The notes under the pieces: generated by a model
What the model saw: the letters and a program-made list of their open reading frames with translations, nothing else
The model's database searches: none
Told to the model about the DNA's origin: nothing
Made by a program: the position numbers and the translations under genes
Source of the DNA: Cyclobacteriaceae bacterium
GTDB lineage: Bacteria; Bacteroidota; Bacteroidia; Cytophagales; Cyclobacteriaceae
NCBI GenBank assembly: GCA_020832375.1
Contig: JAFIEW010000008.1
Coordinates: 1-64,000 of the forward strand
DNA length: 64,000 nt
Direction: 5' to 3'
In this document: in pieces, positions 33,935-46,536 of the stretch
How positions within the stretch are numbered: the stretch's first letter is position 1
Layout: the number at the start of each line of letters is the position of its first letter

Positions 33935-34759
33935 ATGAAAAGCGGCATAAACTCTATTTTAATTGCACTGAGCAGCTTCATCTTGATCATGTCATGTGGA
34001 TGTTCAAAAGCACAAGATAGCAACCTTATATGGGAAGATAACTTTAATAATGGGCTTAACCTTGAAAATTGGACCATAGATCTTGGTGATGGCTGCCCTG
34101 AATTATGTGGGTGGGGTAACAATGAACTCCAAACTTACACTGACAATACTGAAAACCTAAGAATAGAAGATGGAAAGCTGATTATAGAAGCTCATTCTGT
34201 AGAAGGAAAGAATGCTTTTAGCTCAGCTAAAATTCTTACTGAAGGCAAATCAGATTGGACTTATGGTTACTTTGAAATCAGAGCGAAACTACCCAGTACT
34301 AAGGGTACTTGGCCTGCCATTTGGATGCTTCCATCTAAAGGAAAGGATAGAAAGTGGCCGCTAGATGGAGAAATCGACATCATGGAACATGTTGGCTACA
34401 ACCCTAATATGATCTATGGCAGTATCCACACGGATGCATACAACCATATTAAAGGAACAGAAAAAACAGACAGCATCTTTTTAAATGATGCTTCAACTAA
34501 TTTTCATGTTTACGCACTCAATTGGACTGAAGACAGACTGCAATGGTTTGTAAATGGAAAAATGTACAATGAAATTATCAAAAAAGATACCGACGGCCCT
34601 TCAGAATGGCCATTTGATCAACCTTATCACTTGATCATTAATCTAGCTGTAGGAGGAAATTGGGGGGGTAAAAAGGGTATTGATGAAACTTCGTGGCCAG
34701 ATCAATTAGTGATCGATTATGTAAAAGTATACGAGACGTTTCCGCATGAAGCGCATTAA
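33935..34759 (+). CDS. GH16 beta-glucanase, lipoprotein
   Basis: A second, shorter GH16 enzyme of 274 residues, with no accessory domain. Lipoprotein signal peptide with candidate cysteines C21/C23 (LIMSCGCS). Catalytic motif GEIDIMEHVGY gives E146, D148 and E151. GWGNNELQTYTDN and WPAIWMLP segments align with the other GH16 of the locus. It is likely an endo-beta-1,3-glucanase that handles a different chain length or branch pattern than the first. It is the last gene of the operon and an intrinsic terminator follows. Confidence 0.94.
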   Translation: MKSGINSILIALSSFILIMSCGCSKAQDSNLIWEDNFNNGLNLENWTIDLGDGCPELCGWGNNELQTYTDNTENLRIEDGKLIIEAHSVEGKNAFSSAKILTEGKSDWTYGYFEIRAKLPSTKGTWPAIWMLPSKGKDRKWPLDGEIDIMEHVGYNPNMIYGSIHTDAYNHIKGTEKTDSIFLNDASTNFHVYALNWTEDRLQWFVNGKMYNEIIKKDTDGPSEWPFDQPYHLIINLAVGGNWGGKKGIDETSWPDQLVIDYVKVYETFPHEAH

Positions 34760-41044: not shown

Positions 41045-44000
41045 ATGATATCCAACTTTTTTATAAGAAGAAGACTTACCGCTGTCGTGATCAGCATCGT
41101 GCTCGTTACTTTAGGCTTGATAGCGCTACAAAACTTACCCATCACACAATATCCACAAATATCCCCTCCTGTAGTCCGGGTTACGGGTGAATATCCCGGA
41201 GCCGACGCTAAGACCATTGAGGAAACCATGACTACCCCCTTGGAAACGGCTATTAATGGCGCTCCTGGCATGATTTACTTGGAAAGCAATAGTTCAAATG
41301 ATGGATCGATGACGATAGATGCTACCTTCGATATTGATGTAGACCTAGACGTGGCAGCCTTCGAAATTCAAAACCGTGTGGCCGTAGCCGAGGCGCAACT
41401 TCCTGATGCGGTGAGACGGCTAGGACTCACTGTACAAAAAAGAAATCCTTCCTTACTCTTGCTCGTAGCCATGTATTCGCCCAATGGAACGCATGATGTA
41501 GAATTTATGGACAATTACACCAATATATTCGTTCGTGAGCGACTTTTGCGAGTGCCGGGTGTAGGGGACGTATTTTCAAGAGCCGATGATTTCAGCATGC
41601 GTATATGGCTGCAACCTGACAAAATGAGCCAAGTAGGACTCACTGCTAGTGAAGTGATTGCTGCAGTTCAAGAACAGAATGTGGAAGTCGCTGCAGGAAT
41701 TATTGGTGGACCTCCACAAAAAAAACAACAAGCCTTTGAATACACCGCCTTTGTAAATGGGAGGCTGAAAGACCAAGAGGAATTTGAAAGAATCATCTTG
41801 AAGCGTAATGAGGCTACTGGAGCCTTAGTCTACTTAAAGGATGTAGCACGGGTACAGTTGGGAAAATTTGACTATGCCGGAAAAAACTTTGTAGATGGCA
41901 ATCGTGCATCTTACCTTTTGGTATTTCAGCTACCAGGAAGCAATATTCTAGATATATCAGAAGGTATTCACAAAAGTATGAAAGAGCTTGAACCTGATTT
42001 ACCAGCCGATGTGGACTACATCATCCCCTTCGACTCAAGCCTGGTGGTGCAAGCATCTATCAATGAGGTGGTCAAAACACTCTTTTTTGCATTAGGATTG
42101 GTGGTATTGGTGGTCATGATCTTTCTTCAAAACCTAAGGACTACCCTCATCCCTATACTGATCATACCCGTGTCTTTGATTGCCTGTTTGATCTTTTTTG
42201 GCCCTCTTGGTTTTTCTATCAACACCCTCACATTATTTGGTTTCGTTTTGGCTATAGGGATCGTGGTAGACGATGCTATTGTCGTGGTGGAGGCGGTGCA
42301 GCTAAACATGGATAAATATGGCATGTCCTCTGTTGAAGCGACCAAGGAGGCCATGAAAAAAATTAGCGGACCGGTGATTGCCATGTCGCTCATCGTGGCG
42401 GCAGTTTTCATTCCGGTAAGCTTCATACCAGGCATTGTGGGTAGGCTATATCAACAATTCGCTATTACCATCGCTTTATCCGGTTTGATTTCGGGTTTTG
42501 TAGCACTTTCCTTGACGCCAGCCTTATGTGCCATGTTTTTGAAAGCGGCCAAAGATACCAGGAGTCCTTCTTTTGCTAAAAAATTCCAAAAAGCCTTCGA
42601 TCGAGGATTCGAGCGCTTTCAGTTGGCTTATATGCGCATGGTAGCTTGGTCACTTCGAAATGCTAAAGGTGTTTTGGCATCATTAATAGGCCTATTTTTG
42701 GTTTGTGGAATGATATTCTATCTACAACCTACTGGCTTCATTCCCACGGAGGATGAAGGTCGCGTCTTCATTACTTTTGAACTACCCGAAGGAGCATCTA
42801 CTGAAAGAACGGTGACTGTTCTAGAATCCATGATGGAGATTTTACAAGAAACGGAAGAAGTGGCACATTTTTCAGCATTAGCGGGACTCAATGTAGTCAC
42901 TTTCACCTTCAAGTCGAACAGTGGTACTATTTTTACTCAATTAACGCCTTGGGAGGACCGAACAGGTAAGAATCAAGACGTTAAAAGTATCCGAGAAAAG
43001 TTACTCAAGCGATTTGAAGCATTATCAGATGCCGAAGTCGTGATTATACAGCCACCTGCTATACCTGGACTTGGTACCACTTCAGGTTTTTCATTTGTGC
43101 TGCAAGAAAAGAGCGGTAATCGCCCCATTCGTGAATTTGAATCCGACATGCGTAGTTTCATCGAAAAGGCCAATGAAAAAGAAGAAATTAGCGGTGCTTT
43201 TTCATTTTTCAGCGCAAATTACCCCGCCTATCAAATTAACCTAGACCGTGAAGAGGCTCAGAAGAAAGGAGTGCCAATTGGAGAAGTATTTACCACGCTG
43301 CAAACCTTTCTAGGTAGCTTTTATATTAATGATTTTGTGATTTATGGCCGAAGCTTTAGAGTAGTCGCTCAAGCCGACACCGCATTCAGAGACGAAATAG
43401 AAAAAGTTAATCAGTTTTATGTAAGAAATCAAGAAGGTAGAGAAGTACCCTTAGAGAGCTTGGTCAGTTTTGAAAAGATTCAAAATGCCCCACTCATCTC
43501 ACATTATAACCTTTTTCGATCAATTTTGATTAATGGAGATGCAGCCCCTGGATTCAGCTCAGGCCAAGCAATCGCTGCACTCAGGGAGGTTGCTGATAAA
43601 GAACTACCCAGTGGATATTCTTATGAGTTTAGTGGCCTAAGTAGAGAAGAGAAAGCCGGCGATGGAAGTGCTGTATTGATTTTTGGCCTATCCCTTTTCT
43701 TTGTTTTCCTTTGTCTTACAGCCCTTTATGAATCATGGTCAGTGCCTATGAGTGTCCTCTTAGCTGTACCTACAGGTGTACTCGGTGCTGGACTTGCTCT
43801 ATTGATCTGGCCTCAACTCAACAATAATGTCTACGCACAGATAGGCCTAGTTACCCTTATTGGATTATCAGCAAAAAATGCTATTCTCATAGTGGAGTAT
43901 GCAAAAGAAAGAGTCGATAGTGGAAGCTCTATTGTTTTAGGTGTCATGAGAGCCTGTCAACTACGCTTTCGACCTATATTGATGACCAGCTTTGCCTTTA

Positions 44001-44185
44001 TCTTTGGTGTTTTGCCGCTAGCCCTAGCTTCAGGAGCAGGCGCTTTAGCCAGACAGAGCATCGGCTGGACGGTACTCGGAGGCATGATCACTGCAACCGC
44101 ACTTTCCCTATTTTTTGTACCAGTACTCTTTCTAGTGATTGGTCGGAAAAAGTACCAAGCGTCAGATCAAAACATCAAGACTTAA
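41045..44185 (+). CDS. RND-family efflux pump inner-membrane subunit (AcrB/MexB-like, HAE1)
   Basis: A 1046-residue proton-driven exporter with 12 membrane helices and two large periplasmic loops. The start is typical (FFIRRRLTAVVISIVLVTLGLIAL then LPITQYPQISPPVVRV). Proton-relay aspartates D409-D410 are present in GIVVDDAIVV of helix 4, and a lysine lies in helix 10 (GLSAKNAILIVEYAK). Such pumps normally work with a periplasmic adaptor and an outer-membrane channel, usually encoded next door; neither is adjacent here. Flanking gaps are 578 and 242 bases. Substrates cannot be read from the sequence. Confidence 0.94.
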   Translation: MISNFFIRRRLTAVVISIVLVTLGLIALQNLPITQYPQISPPVVRVTGEYPGADAKTIEETMTTPLETAINGAPGMIYLESNSSNDGSMTIDATFDIDVDLDVAAFEIQNRVAVAEAQLPDAVRRLGLTVQKRNPSLLLLVAMYSPNGTHDVEFMDNYTNIFVRERLLRVPGVGDVFSRADDFSMRIWLQPDKMSQVGLTASEVIAAVQEQNVEVAAGIIGGPPQKKQQAFEYTAFVNGRLKDQEEFERIILKRNEATGALVYLKDVARVQLGKFDYAGKNFVDGNRASYLLVFQLPGSNILDISEGIHKSMKELEPDLPADVDYIIPFDSSLVVQASINEVVKTLFFALGLVVLVVMIFLQNLRTTLIPILIIPVSLIACLIFFGPLGFSINTLTLFGFVLAIGIVVDDAIVVVEAVQLNMDKYGMSSVEATKEAMKKISGPVIAMSLIVAAVFIPVSFIPGIVGRLYQQFAITIALSGLISGFVALSLTPALCAMFLKAAKDTRSPSFAKKFQKAFDRGFERFQLAYMRMVAWSLRNAKGVLASLIGLFLVCGMIFYLQPTGFIPTEDEGRVFITFELPEGASTERTVTVLESMMEILQETEEVAHFSALAGLNVVTFTFKSNSGTIFTQLTPWEDRTGKNQDVKSIREKLLKRFEALSDAEVVIIQPPAIPGLGTTSGFSFVLQEKSGNRPIREFESDMRSFIEKANEKEEISGAFSFFSANYPAYQINLDREEAQKKGVPIGEVFTTLQTFLGSFYINDFVIYGRSFRVVAQADTAFRDEIEKVNQFYVRNQEGREVPLESLVSFEKIQNAPLISHYNLFRSILINGDAAPGFSSGQAIAALREVADKELPSGYSYEFSGLSREEKAGDGSAVLIFGLSLFFVFLCLTALYESWSVPMSVLLAVPTGVLGAGLALLIWPQLNNNVYAQIGLVTLIGLSAKNAILIVEYAKERVDSGSSIVLGVMRACQLRFRPILMTSFAFIFGVLPLALASGAGALARQSIGWTVLGGMITATALSLFFVPVLFLVIGRKKYQASDQNIKT

Positions 44186-44427
44186 TAGTAATACAAAAAA
44201 GTTAATTGCGGGTTTACTTTGGAAGTCCTAAGTATAAGTTTTTCATGGTCCGCTGCAGCTCAAGAGCTAAGTAGAAGTCTTCGTTTTTTCGCCTAAAACT
44301 GTTTCCCTGATTCATCAGAATATTATCAGAGCTAGCACAAGCCAATAGCCTTAGTAACTTATACTCAAATTGATATTTTCATCAACAGCAAGTAAAACAA
44401 GCCGTTAATAAAAATAAAAAAATCACT

Positions 44428-44970
44428 ATGCTATCTAATCTTAAATTTAAATCGATTATTTTTATTTTCTTGATTCTCCCATTTCACATGAATGGTCAAT
44501 CCGGCGAGATTGAAATCAAAGAAAGACAAATTCAAGTCAATGAACAATCTGATAAATTTAAAATCCAAGAAACGCTCAATCATTTAGAAATTTTGAATAA
44601 AACCGTCAAACTTGTACACTGGAATGCGGAAGGCCCTACCGCTTATGTACTTCACGAGCTAACTGACGAATTTATTGAAGAAATTGATGGTCACACAGAT
44701 TTAATAGCTGAACAGTTTCGCGTACTAGGTCATTATCCTGAGATTGATTTGGCTCAATTAAATGAAATGAAGGACGATTTTTACTTTCCAAATGAAAAAA
44801 TTAAGGTTGAAGATGCCATTCAACAATTGATTGAAAATTACGAATTGGTTATCACCACTTTAGATGCTAAAATAGAAAAAGCCGAAGCAGACTTAGTTAC
44901 TCAAGACTATTTTATTGATTTGAAAACAGATTTGCTTTTACAGCAATGGAAATTGAAGATGCAACTCTAA
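44428..44970 (+). CDS. Dps/ferritin-like protein with N-terminal signal peptide
   Basis: A 180-residue protein of the Dps family, which binds and oxidises ferrous iron in a 12-subunit cage. All four di-iron ligands of the inter-subunit ferroxidase site are conserved with the usual spacing: H64 (VHWN), H76 (VLHEL), D91 and E95 (DLIAE). The C-terminal helix ends QQWKLKMQL as in other Dps proteins. Unusually, the protein starts with a hydrophobic export-type signal (MLSNLKFKSIIFIFLILPFH, cleavage near MNGQ) and a 20-residue linker, so it is predicted to be periplasmic rather than DNA-bound. Single gene with a terminator. Confidence 0.88.
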   Translation: MLSNLKFKSIIFIFLILPFHMNGQSGEIEIKERQIQVNEQSDKFKIQETLNHLEILNKTVKLVHWNAEGPTAYVLHELTDEFIEEIDGHTDLIAEQFRVLGHYPEIDLAQLNEMKDDFYFPNEKIKVEDAIQQLIENYELVITTLDAKIEKAEADLVTQDYFIDLKTDLLLQQWKLKMQL

Positions 44971-44998
44971 AACAACACCTTAGATTTTATAGTAAATG

Positions 44999-45023
44999 GC
45001 GCTAAAGAATTAGCGCTTTTTTT
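44999..45023 (+). terminator. Intrinsic terminator after the Dps gene
   Basis: Arms GCGCTAA (44999-45005) and TTAGCGC (45010-45016) around a 4-base loop, followed by seven T. Strong plus-strand terminator 29 bases after the Dps stop. Confidence 0.92.
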
Positions 45024-45180
45024 ATGCAGTATAGGTGGACTTTTCTTGCTATTCTTATCGGTTCGTCGCAACTTTGACTCATCTTCATGACTAAGGCAAA
45101 TAGAATTATGAAAGCATGGCTTAAATAATTTGATCTTAATCAACTTCAGAAAATCCTTTTCAACTAGTCAAGAAAGCGCT

Positions 45181-46536
45181 TTGCTAACATACATAGAAAA
45201 ATTACTCACCAGCTTTGGCGAAAACATGTGGGGTATACCCCTACTTATTTTATTGGTAGGAGGTGGCATCTACCTTACATTTTTCAGTGGTTTTATTCAG
45301 TTTGCCTATATCCGTCATGCCATCAACATTCTAAGAGGAAAACATGACGAGCCTGGTAGTAAAGGAGAAATAAACCACTTCGAAGCTTTGAGCGGCGCAA
45401 TAGCAGCAACTGTAGGTATGGGTAATATTAGCGGAGTTGCTATTGCCATCACCATGGGTGGCCCTGGTGCTCTTGTTTGGATGTGGATCAGCGCCATTCT
45501 AGGTATGTCAATTAAGTTTTTCACCTGTTCTCTAGCAATCATGTATCGCGGCTACGACTCAGCCGGCAAGCTACAGGGTGGCCCCATGTATGTGATCAGA
45601 GAGGGCCTCGGTAAAAAATGGATGCCTTTAGCCATTTTCTTTTGCATTGCGGGGATGCTGGGACCTTTACCTACCTTTCAAGCCAATCAGCTCACCGATG
45701 TCATTAGAGTCAACCTACTTGAAATGCCTGATACCCTAGTAGTAAATTTAAGCATCGGCTTGGTGATCATGGCAATCATAGCTGTGGTTATCTTAGGTGG
45801 CATTAAGCGAATAGGCAAGGTTGCAGCGAGTGTAGTTCCTTTGATGGTCGTCATTTACCTGATAGCTGTACTCATCATATTATTTAATAATCGAGCGGAA
45901 GTACCCGCTATGTTTTCGTTGATTTTCAATGATGCCTTTCGTGCAGACTCTGTACTTGGCGGCGCCGTGGGTTCGCTCATCATTATCGGCGCAAAGCGTG
46001 CAGCATTTTCCAATGAAGCGGGTATAGGTACCGCCCCTATGATTCATGGAGCCTCAACTACCAACGAACCAACTAAAGAAGGCTTAGTCGCCATGTTAGG
46101 CCCAGCCATCGACACCATACTAGTTTGTACGCTTACTGCTTTAGCCATATTGTCCACGGGTGCATGGAAGAGTGGCTCACAAGACGGAATATTGCTCACC
46201 ATGCAAGCTTTCGAAATAGGACTGTCTTGGGTAGGAAAATACATTCTCATCCTCTGTGTGGTTTTCTTTTCTTTGAGTTCACTATTCACCTTTTCTTACT
46301 ATGGCACCAAATGTCTTGGTTTCATGATCGGCGCAGACAAAGCGCACTATTTCAACTACTTTTACCTCGTCAACGTGATCATTGGTGCAGTAGCATCCTT
46401 AGATGCAGTCATTGGACTTATAGATGGCATGTATGCACTCATGGCCATACCCACTATGGTATCAACCTTGCTACTCGCCCCCAAAGTAAAGGCAGAAGCA
46501 AAACGATACTTTAAGAAAATAGCAACTCAGAGGTAG
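45181..46536 (+). CDS. Sodium:alanine/glycine symporter (AGCS family)
   Basis: A sodium-coupled amino-acid transporter with about 11 helices. No ATG exists near the start of the frame; the N-terminus of relatives (short hydrophilic stretch, then LLTSFGENMWGIPLLILLVGGG) fits a TTG at 45181, preceded by AGAAAG, giving 451 residues. Another TTG at 45130 would add 17 residues. The AGCS signature EALSGAIAATVGMGNISGVA is intact, as is the later GAKRAAFSNEAGIGTAPMIHG block. Substrate is probably alanine or glycine. An exact copy of the short dispersed motif follows 10 bases after the stop. Confidence 0.93.
   Translation: MLTYIEKLLTSFGENMWGIPLLILLVGGGIYLTFFSGFIQFAYIRHAINILRGKHDEPGSKGEINHFEALSGAIAATVGMGNISGVAIAITMGGPGALVWMWISAILGMSIKFFTCSLAIMYRGYDSAGKLQGGPMYVIREGLGKKWMPLAIFFCIAGMLGPLPTFQANQLTDVIRVNLLEMPDTLVVNLSIGLVIMAIIAVVILGGIKRIGKVAASVVPLMVVIYLIAVLIILFNNRAEVPAMFSLIFNDAFRADSVLGGAVGSLIIIGAKRAAFSNEAGIGTAPMIHGASTTNEPTKEGLVAMLGPAIDTILVCTLTALAILSTGAWKSGSQDGILLTMQAFEIGLSWVGKYILILCVVFFSLSSLFTFSYYGTKCLGFMIGADKAHYFNYFYLVNVIIGAVASLDAVIGLIDGMYALMAIPTMVSTLLLAPKVKAEAKRYFKKIATQR

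Follow-up and report, generated by a model that had tools for sequence, protein, structure and literature searches.

A second Dps-type mini-ferritin with a predicted Sec export signal in a Cyclobacteriaceae bacterium

Dps is generally portrayed as a guardian of DNA in the cytoplasm, so a member of the family whose gene appears to begin with an export signal raises the question of whether the protein leaves the cytoplasm and what it does there. We have analysed such a gene, P0001, in a window of 64,000 nucleotides (the whole stretch studied: contig JAFIEW010000008.1 of a Cyclobacteriaceae bacterium, positions 1 to 64,000), with its features collected in Table 1. The open reading frame is intact from ATG to TAA over 180 codons, and the frame read on the opposite (minus) strand of 44428-44970 is interrupted by stops. 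On the sequence evidence below, we consider it quite probable that P0001 is a second, Sec-exported, periplasmic Dps-type mini-ferritin, which would detoxify iron and peroxide and has no DNA-binding tail.

Table 1 Features of the P0001 locus in window coordinates
Feature	Coordinates	Strand	Basis
ORF, exported Dps-type mini-ferritin P0001 (predicted), 180 aa	44428..44970	+	ORF calling, Pfam, phmmer
Predicted Sec/SPI signal peptide, residues 1-23, cleavage between G23 and Q24 (Q-rule)	44428..44496	+	hydropathy, invariant NGQ
N-terminal linker of predicted mature protein, residues 24-44 (QSGEIEIKERQIQVNEQSDKF)	44497..44559	+	
Dps/ferritin-like four-helix domain with H64, H76, D91, E95	44560..44967	+	Pfam, phmmer, model, structure matches
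Intrinsic-terminator-like hairpin, then T run	44998..45017	+	region score 2 (one hairpin, both strands); shuffles mean 0.6

The initial annotation had called P0001 a Dps protein with all four ferroxidase ligands, and we can confirm this. The protein matches the Pfam family Ferritin (PF00210) with 54.4 bits over residues 47-180 (cut-off 24.5), and in phmmer H64, H76, D91 and E95 align with the HW..., H, D and E positions of Dps proteins of solved structure, which we take to be the ferroxidase ligands; W65 and W174 are present as well. The scores against these solved Dps proteins are at most 46.7 bits, and the NCBIfam equivalog PRK09448 for E. coli-type Dps gives 50.9 bits, under its curated cut-off of 114. 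An AlphaFold2 monomer model from a five-row alignment (pLDDT 76.1, pTM 0.69, residues 1-27 below 50) places helices at 24-66, 72-99, 108-115, 127-151 and 156-179, i.e., four long helices in a bundle, the second and third of which are separated by a short one (108-115). The best Foldseek match of the model is M. smegmatis Dps (E 4.7e-7), all the matches listed being Dps. In VIA-align, M. smegmatis Dps2 (Z 21.5) and D. radiodurans Dps2 (DrDps2, Z 21.0 and 20.9) stand ahead of other Dps from 20.5 down, with the leading scores tied within 1 with other Dps and nearly all of the rows listed being Dps. The modelled fold is that of Dps, without favouring any one subgroup.

In the predicted mature tail (QSGEIEIKERQIQVNEQSDKF) we have found no Lys-rich DNA-binding segment of the E. 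coli type, hence DNA binding of that type by P0001 is unlikely. The computed pI of the mature protein (4.49) is no argument for a lack of DNA binding, because the signal-less Dps of the same genome (L002) has 4.59 and the Algoriphagus orthologue 5.6.

As for the leader, the N-terminus (MLSNLKFKSIIFIFLILPFHMNGQ) contains K6 and K8, followed by no D, E, K or R across S9-G26. The best 11-residue Kyte-Doolittle mean is 2.87 (residues 9-19), compared with at most 0.94 from residue 25 on, and shuffling the whole protein brings a mean this high into the first 30 residues in 340 of 50,000 cases (~0.7% by chance). The hydrophobic core covers ~11-12 residues and P18 is present, with residues 1-23 as the likely leader; that is, the hydrophobic N-terminus described in the initial annotation stands, but its length of 20 residues does not. 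The leader has been judged from hydropathy, the alignment and the Q-rule. Hydropathy splits signal-bearing from signal-less Dps imperfectly (18 against 74 ORFs, labelled by eye from the same N-termini): the lowest signal-bearing value is 2.01, while the highest signal-less one is 2.34 (an over-extended TTG start) and the next 2.01, and the signal-less same-family Dps L063 has 2.15.

Conservation in orthologues is stronger evidence for the leader than hydropathy. P0001 has two close orthologues, in Algoriphagus ornithinivorans (Cyclobacteriaceae, Cytophagales) and A. algorifonticola, at 38-41% overall identity. Both start with MKRFTFLFVFMMAWVLEVNGQ, and N22, G23 and Q24 of P0001 are invariant in the alignment with them, though the linker after N-G-Q is 15 residues shorter in the two orthologues. 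The initial annotation had predicted a hydrophobic export signal and suggested looking for it in other Cytophagales; there it is kept, as a hydrophobic leader ending in N-G-Q, in both close orthologues. With a signal of this kind present in both of its closest relatives, that of P0001 is probably real.

According to the available sections of two papers (PMC5837995, PMC10653852), the usual cleavage site of signal peptidase I in Bacteroidetes lies ahead of a Gln, and this Gln is afterwards cyclised. The predicted leader of P0001 with its N-G-Q junction fits this 'Q-rule'. Position -3 of the proposed site is Met in P0001 and Val in both orthologues, and Met at this position is unusual. An X-Q junction also occurs in 8 of the 16 other window ORFs with 150+ aa and a hydrophobic N-terminus, including one RND-pump membrane protein (probably by chance) and one possible lipoprotein (33935-34759). 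For P0001 itself, a lipoprotein reading has been ruled out, because the protein contains no Cys and so no lipobox. A PF04389 (M28) search for a glutaminyl cyclase was left unused, since cyclases and peptidases could not be separated by it.

The leader might instead remain in place as an uncleaved N-terminal anchor, making P0001 a membrane-tethered Dps cage for iron storage or trafficking. The available text of PMC6868200 does report DrDps2 to be membrane-attached via its N-terminal tail, along with a tail-less cytosolic form. However, the core of P0001 is short and is followed by P18 and the conserved N-G-Q, which is the usual look of a cleaved Bacteroidetes leader (sections of PMC5837995), and we regard an anchor as unlikely.

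Another in-frame ATG lies at M21, just past the hydrophobic segment, and could give a leaderless form in the source species. If translation began only there, P0001 would be an ordinary cytoplasmic Dps, and the upstream frame would be open by chance. The base composition ahead of the two ATGs is neutral in this respect (A+T at 23 against 22 of 30 positions). But both orthologues have no Met at that place and keep the same kind of leader, whereas orthologues starting after the hydrophobic segment were what the initial annotation had named as evidence against export. Between the two Algoriphagus genes, 24 codons differ synonymously and 4 change the amino acid; in the first 21 codons (through Q) there are 2 synonymous changes and no others, a small test with n=2. 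A start at M21 is thereby very improbable.

Slightly less credible still is an exported, periplasmic P0001 with a structural instead of a catalytic role, binding peptidoglycan as Borrelia NapA, a periplasmic, peptidoglycan-associated Dps described in the available text of PMC8118282 as without DNA binding: the four ferroxidase residues are kept across P0001 and its two orthologues at ~40% identity, which argues for selection on iron chemistry, and NapA, having no classical signal sequence in the same description, is a parallel. The structural and iron readings need not exclude each other, because NapA is also reported to sequester iron and copper (PMC8118282).

The source genome (4.1 Mb, 99.99% complete) contains three PF00210 matches, namely a 174-aa ferritin, a 154-aa leaderless Dps (L002) and P0001. 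Since it holds an ordinary signal-less Dps already, P0001 is an extra gene. L002 has the fold family and the motif in common with P0001; it differs in having no leader, is 26% identical and falls in trees among signal-less Cytophagales Dps, and the ordinary Dps proteins read from relatives are likewise without a leader. P0001 being only 26% identical to the resident Dps and grouping elsewhere, we have rejected the possibility that the latter recently acquired a leader.

The trees are based on the domain only, from 24 residues ahead of the first ligand, which prevents the leader from pulling proteins together. P0001 and the two Algoriphagus proteins come together with 100/99, apart from the own Dps, and this placement is firm in the sequence trees. 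In a 60-row tree (thinned from 94 by dropping rows at least 80% alike in ungapped comparison, DrDps2 itself among them), the signal-bearing Dps and one leaderless tandem copy form one group (100/97), within which P0001 stands with L044 and L040 (99/91). For a 56-row tree, actinobacterial and lactobacillar Dps were added, the long-branched L118 and L113 and the redundant L036 and L121 were removed, and 14 further signal-less rows were thinned. Its wider group (89/97) includes P0001, DrDps2 and also four signal-less actinobacterial Dps, with the joints open, and a single clade of signal-bearing Dps is not rejected (p-AU 0.385). That is, the suggestion of one group of signal-bearing Dps becomes weaker with more data. 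A profile of P0001 and its two orthologues (A1) scores A. tumefaciens Dps higher than DrDps2 (55.4 against 35.3 bits), which speaks against a close tie between P0001 and DrDps2. A grouping of the P0001 type with a long-branched Lactiplantibacillus Dps (94/73 in a discarded tree) has been dismissed, the lactobacillar Dps lying outside in the 56-row tree.

The distribution of the P0001 lineage is patchy. Among 390 genomes of the same family, two besides its own have a close relative (93 and 91 bits), and the next match has 47 bits; thus the type is found in 3 of the 390 sampled family genomes, own included, and in 2 of 72 Algoriphagus genomes. We have rejected the idea of orthologues being widespread in the family: in the loci read (labelled L here; the best 30 of each search, with L016 left out), L044 is the sole other leader-bearing Dps besides the two orthologues. 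Among 395 genomes of the phylum, no further one has the type at 1e-8, the best other match having 40.6 bits, and the loci read behind that match are ordinary Dps except L040. A single-protein scan of the genome contigs with P0001 gave no match. The plasmid and phage collections returned distant Dps only (190 matching plasmid records and 76 Streptomyces phage records), with no record covering 80% of the query, and the viral contig search gave two copies of one distant Dps. Some Phaeobacter matches span the leader of the query, and the protein is leaderless in the one record read. Dps-like genes do occur in phages and virus-like contigs, such as L118:2874-3377 (a viral contig) and Streptomyces phages like NC_048730. 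The P0001 gene has a G+C content of 32.2% and the window one of 38.1%; as 46 of 635 sliding segments of 543 bases are equally low, this says little about a foreign origin.

A periplasmic ferritin-like cage had been called unusual for the Dps family in the initial annotation, which is right as to frequency, but not in the sense of unprecedented, considering DrDps2 and Borrelia NapA. Exported or periplasmic Dps is rare, not new, and P0001 adds to a known kind. For DrDps2 (DR_RS15920, MP1; PDB 2c2j, 6tgt), a signal peptide has been proposed (sections of PMC9820295), and dodecamers, both membrane-attached and cytosolic, have been linked to iron storage (sections of PMC6868200). Like P0001, it has a Dps domain and a hydrophobic leader, here with an A-Q junction (L115), and D. 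radiodurans also has a second Dps in the cell (PMC6868200). The two proteins are ~22% identical (structure match Z 21.0) and share one wider tree group, with 100/97 via the close relatives L112 and L114 and 89/97 with DrDps2 included. On the other hand, P0001 is without the C-terminal extension and the D-G-R motif of the Dps2-type and, unlike DrDps2, has no two-component system directly beside its gene. Judged by the sizes of the genes next to that of DrDps2 (L115:1-1127, NC_000958), 1356 and 660 bases, the response regulator name RadR and the sensor kinase name RadS seem to have been exchanged. NapA of Borrelia burgdorferi resembles P0001 in its periplasmic location (predicted for P0001), and differs in its peptidoglycan association and in having no classical signal, as far as the available text of PMC8118282 describes it. 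Among the open-licence literature matches listed, none is a paper about a Bacteroidota Dps with Sec export, and the available parts of two Dps reviews (PMC10536872, PMC7762939) make no mention of exported Dps.

Judged by sequence, signal-bearing Dps are found in Cytophagales, Deinococcus, Sphingomonas and Methylorubrum. The Cytophagales Dps2-type proteins (L044, L070, L079, L085/L104, L102, L103, L105, L106, L107, L109 and L116) have an X-Q leader and the Dps motif, as P0001 does. Leader-bearing L044 (27% identical to P0001, 47 bits) is the best family match outside the orthologues. Used as query with a threshold of 1e-14, it finds matches in 10 of 241 order genomes: eight have a leader-bearing copy (L105 by an internal ATG of an over-long frame), and the remaining two are G949 (L108, leaderless, first His lost) and G651 (the Algoriphagus orthologue). 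In the phylum, 10 of 395 genomes match it at 1e-12 or better, leader-bearing in G370 and G130 and not in the other eight, and in plasmids it finds Sphingomonas and 18 Deinococcus records; the D. psychrotolerans protein as query then led to DrDps2. The protein at L108:1492-2046, a leaderless Dps2-type, is probably without ferroxidase activity, because its first ferroxidase His is Arg (KQARWN). At L081:1330-2001 and 2086-2631 there is a tandem Dps pair, one copy with a signal peptide and the next without, which lends itself to a comparison of exported and cytoplasmic forms.

Several of these Cytophagales genes lie beside a response regulator or catalase/peroxidase gene, neighbours that are frequent in the exported Dps2-type group but not universal. 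A divergent response regulator gene stands beside the signal-bearing Dps2-type gene in L102 (read by eye, split frame), L103, L104 and L107 of Cytophagales and in L112, L114 (one small gene between) and L115 of Deinococcus, and in Sphingomonas (L111) the regulator is on the same strand, with a kinase between; there is none beside the gene in L105. The regulators are Pfam-confirmed in L103, L104 and L107, and known by annotation in Deinococcus and Sphingomonas. This link across three phyla suggests a dedicated sensor. Behind the signal-bearing Dps gene, a gene for catalase or haem peroxidase is found in L116 (Fibrella, Spirosomataceae) and in L070/L081, L106 and L109, three genomes of one family of the order; in L070/L081 it comes after the second, leaderless copy.

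P0001, by comparison, has no two-component system or catalase/peroxidase gene among its direct neighbours. The upstream neighbour, an AcrB-type RND pump gene (41045-44185), has the same orientation, and downstream are a Na/Ala symporter and a CobW-type GTPase. The hairpin of Table 1, with a similar one after the stop of the orthologue gene in A. ornithinivorans, suggests that transcription ends after the P0001 gene. We have found no sigma-70-type promoter match in 44100-45200; Bacteroidota promoters differ from that type. In A. ornithinivorans a TonB-dependent receptor gene is divergent from the orthologue, and an RND gene with adaptor lies ~2.7 kb downstream (L066:8170-10485), while the same stretch of A. 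algorifonticola (L067) has no RND gene. We take the RND proximity in the window and in A. ornithinivorans, at different distances, as chance, and there is no shared neighbourhood pointing to a partner of P0001.

For P0001 as an exported mini-ferritin, we infer export, cleavage, location, cage and activity as follows. Residues 1-23 would be removed by signal peptidase I before Q24, and the mature subunit of 157 residues would fold in the periplasm and assemble into a Dps-like cage, with H64, H76, D91 and E95 forming ferroxidase centres across subunit interfaces. Fe(II) would then be oxidised with H2O2 or O2 and stored as ferric mineral, so that Fenton-active iron and peroxide are removed outside the cytoplasm, and the cytoplasmic job would be left to the ordinary Dps L002.

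More tentatively, and with doubt prevailing, the signal-bearing Dps of Bacteroidota, Deinococcota and Alphaproteobacteria may all belong to a single ancient line of extracytoplasmic mini-ferritins that has mostly been overlooked. They would serve as an outward defence against iron and peroxide, in part linked to two-component systems and catalases of their own, and P0001 would be a branch that has diverged strongly and been pared down to a periplasmic cage standing alone. Orthologues of P0001 are carried by named, cultured Algoriphagus species, which makes the protein open to ordinary fractionation. If true, a conserved Sec-exported Dps in Bacteroidota would mean that in some Gram-negatives the periplasm, as the place of Fe(II) entry and of first contact with external peroxide, is also provided with an iron sink of the ferritin type.
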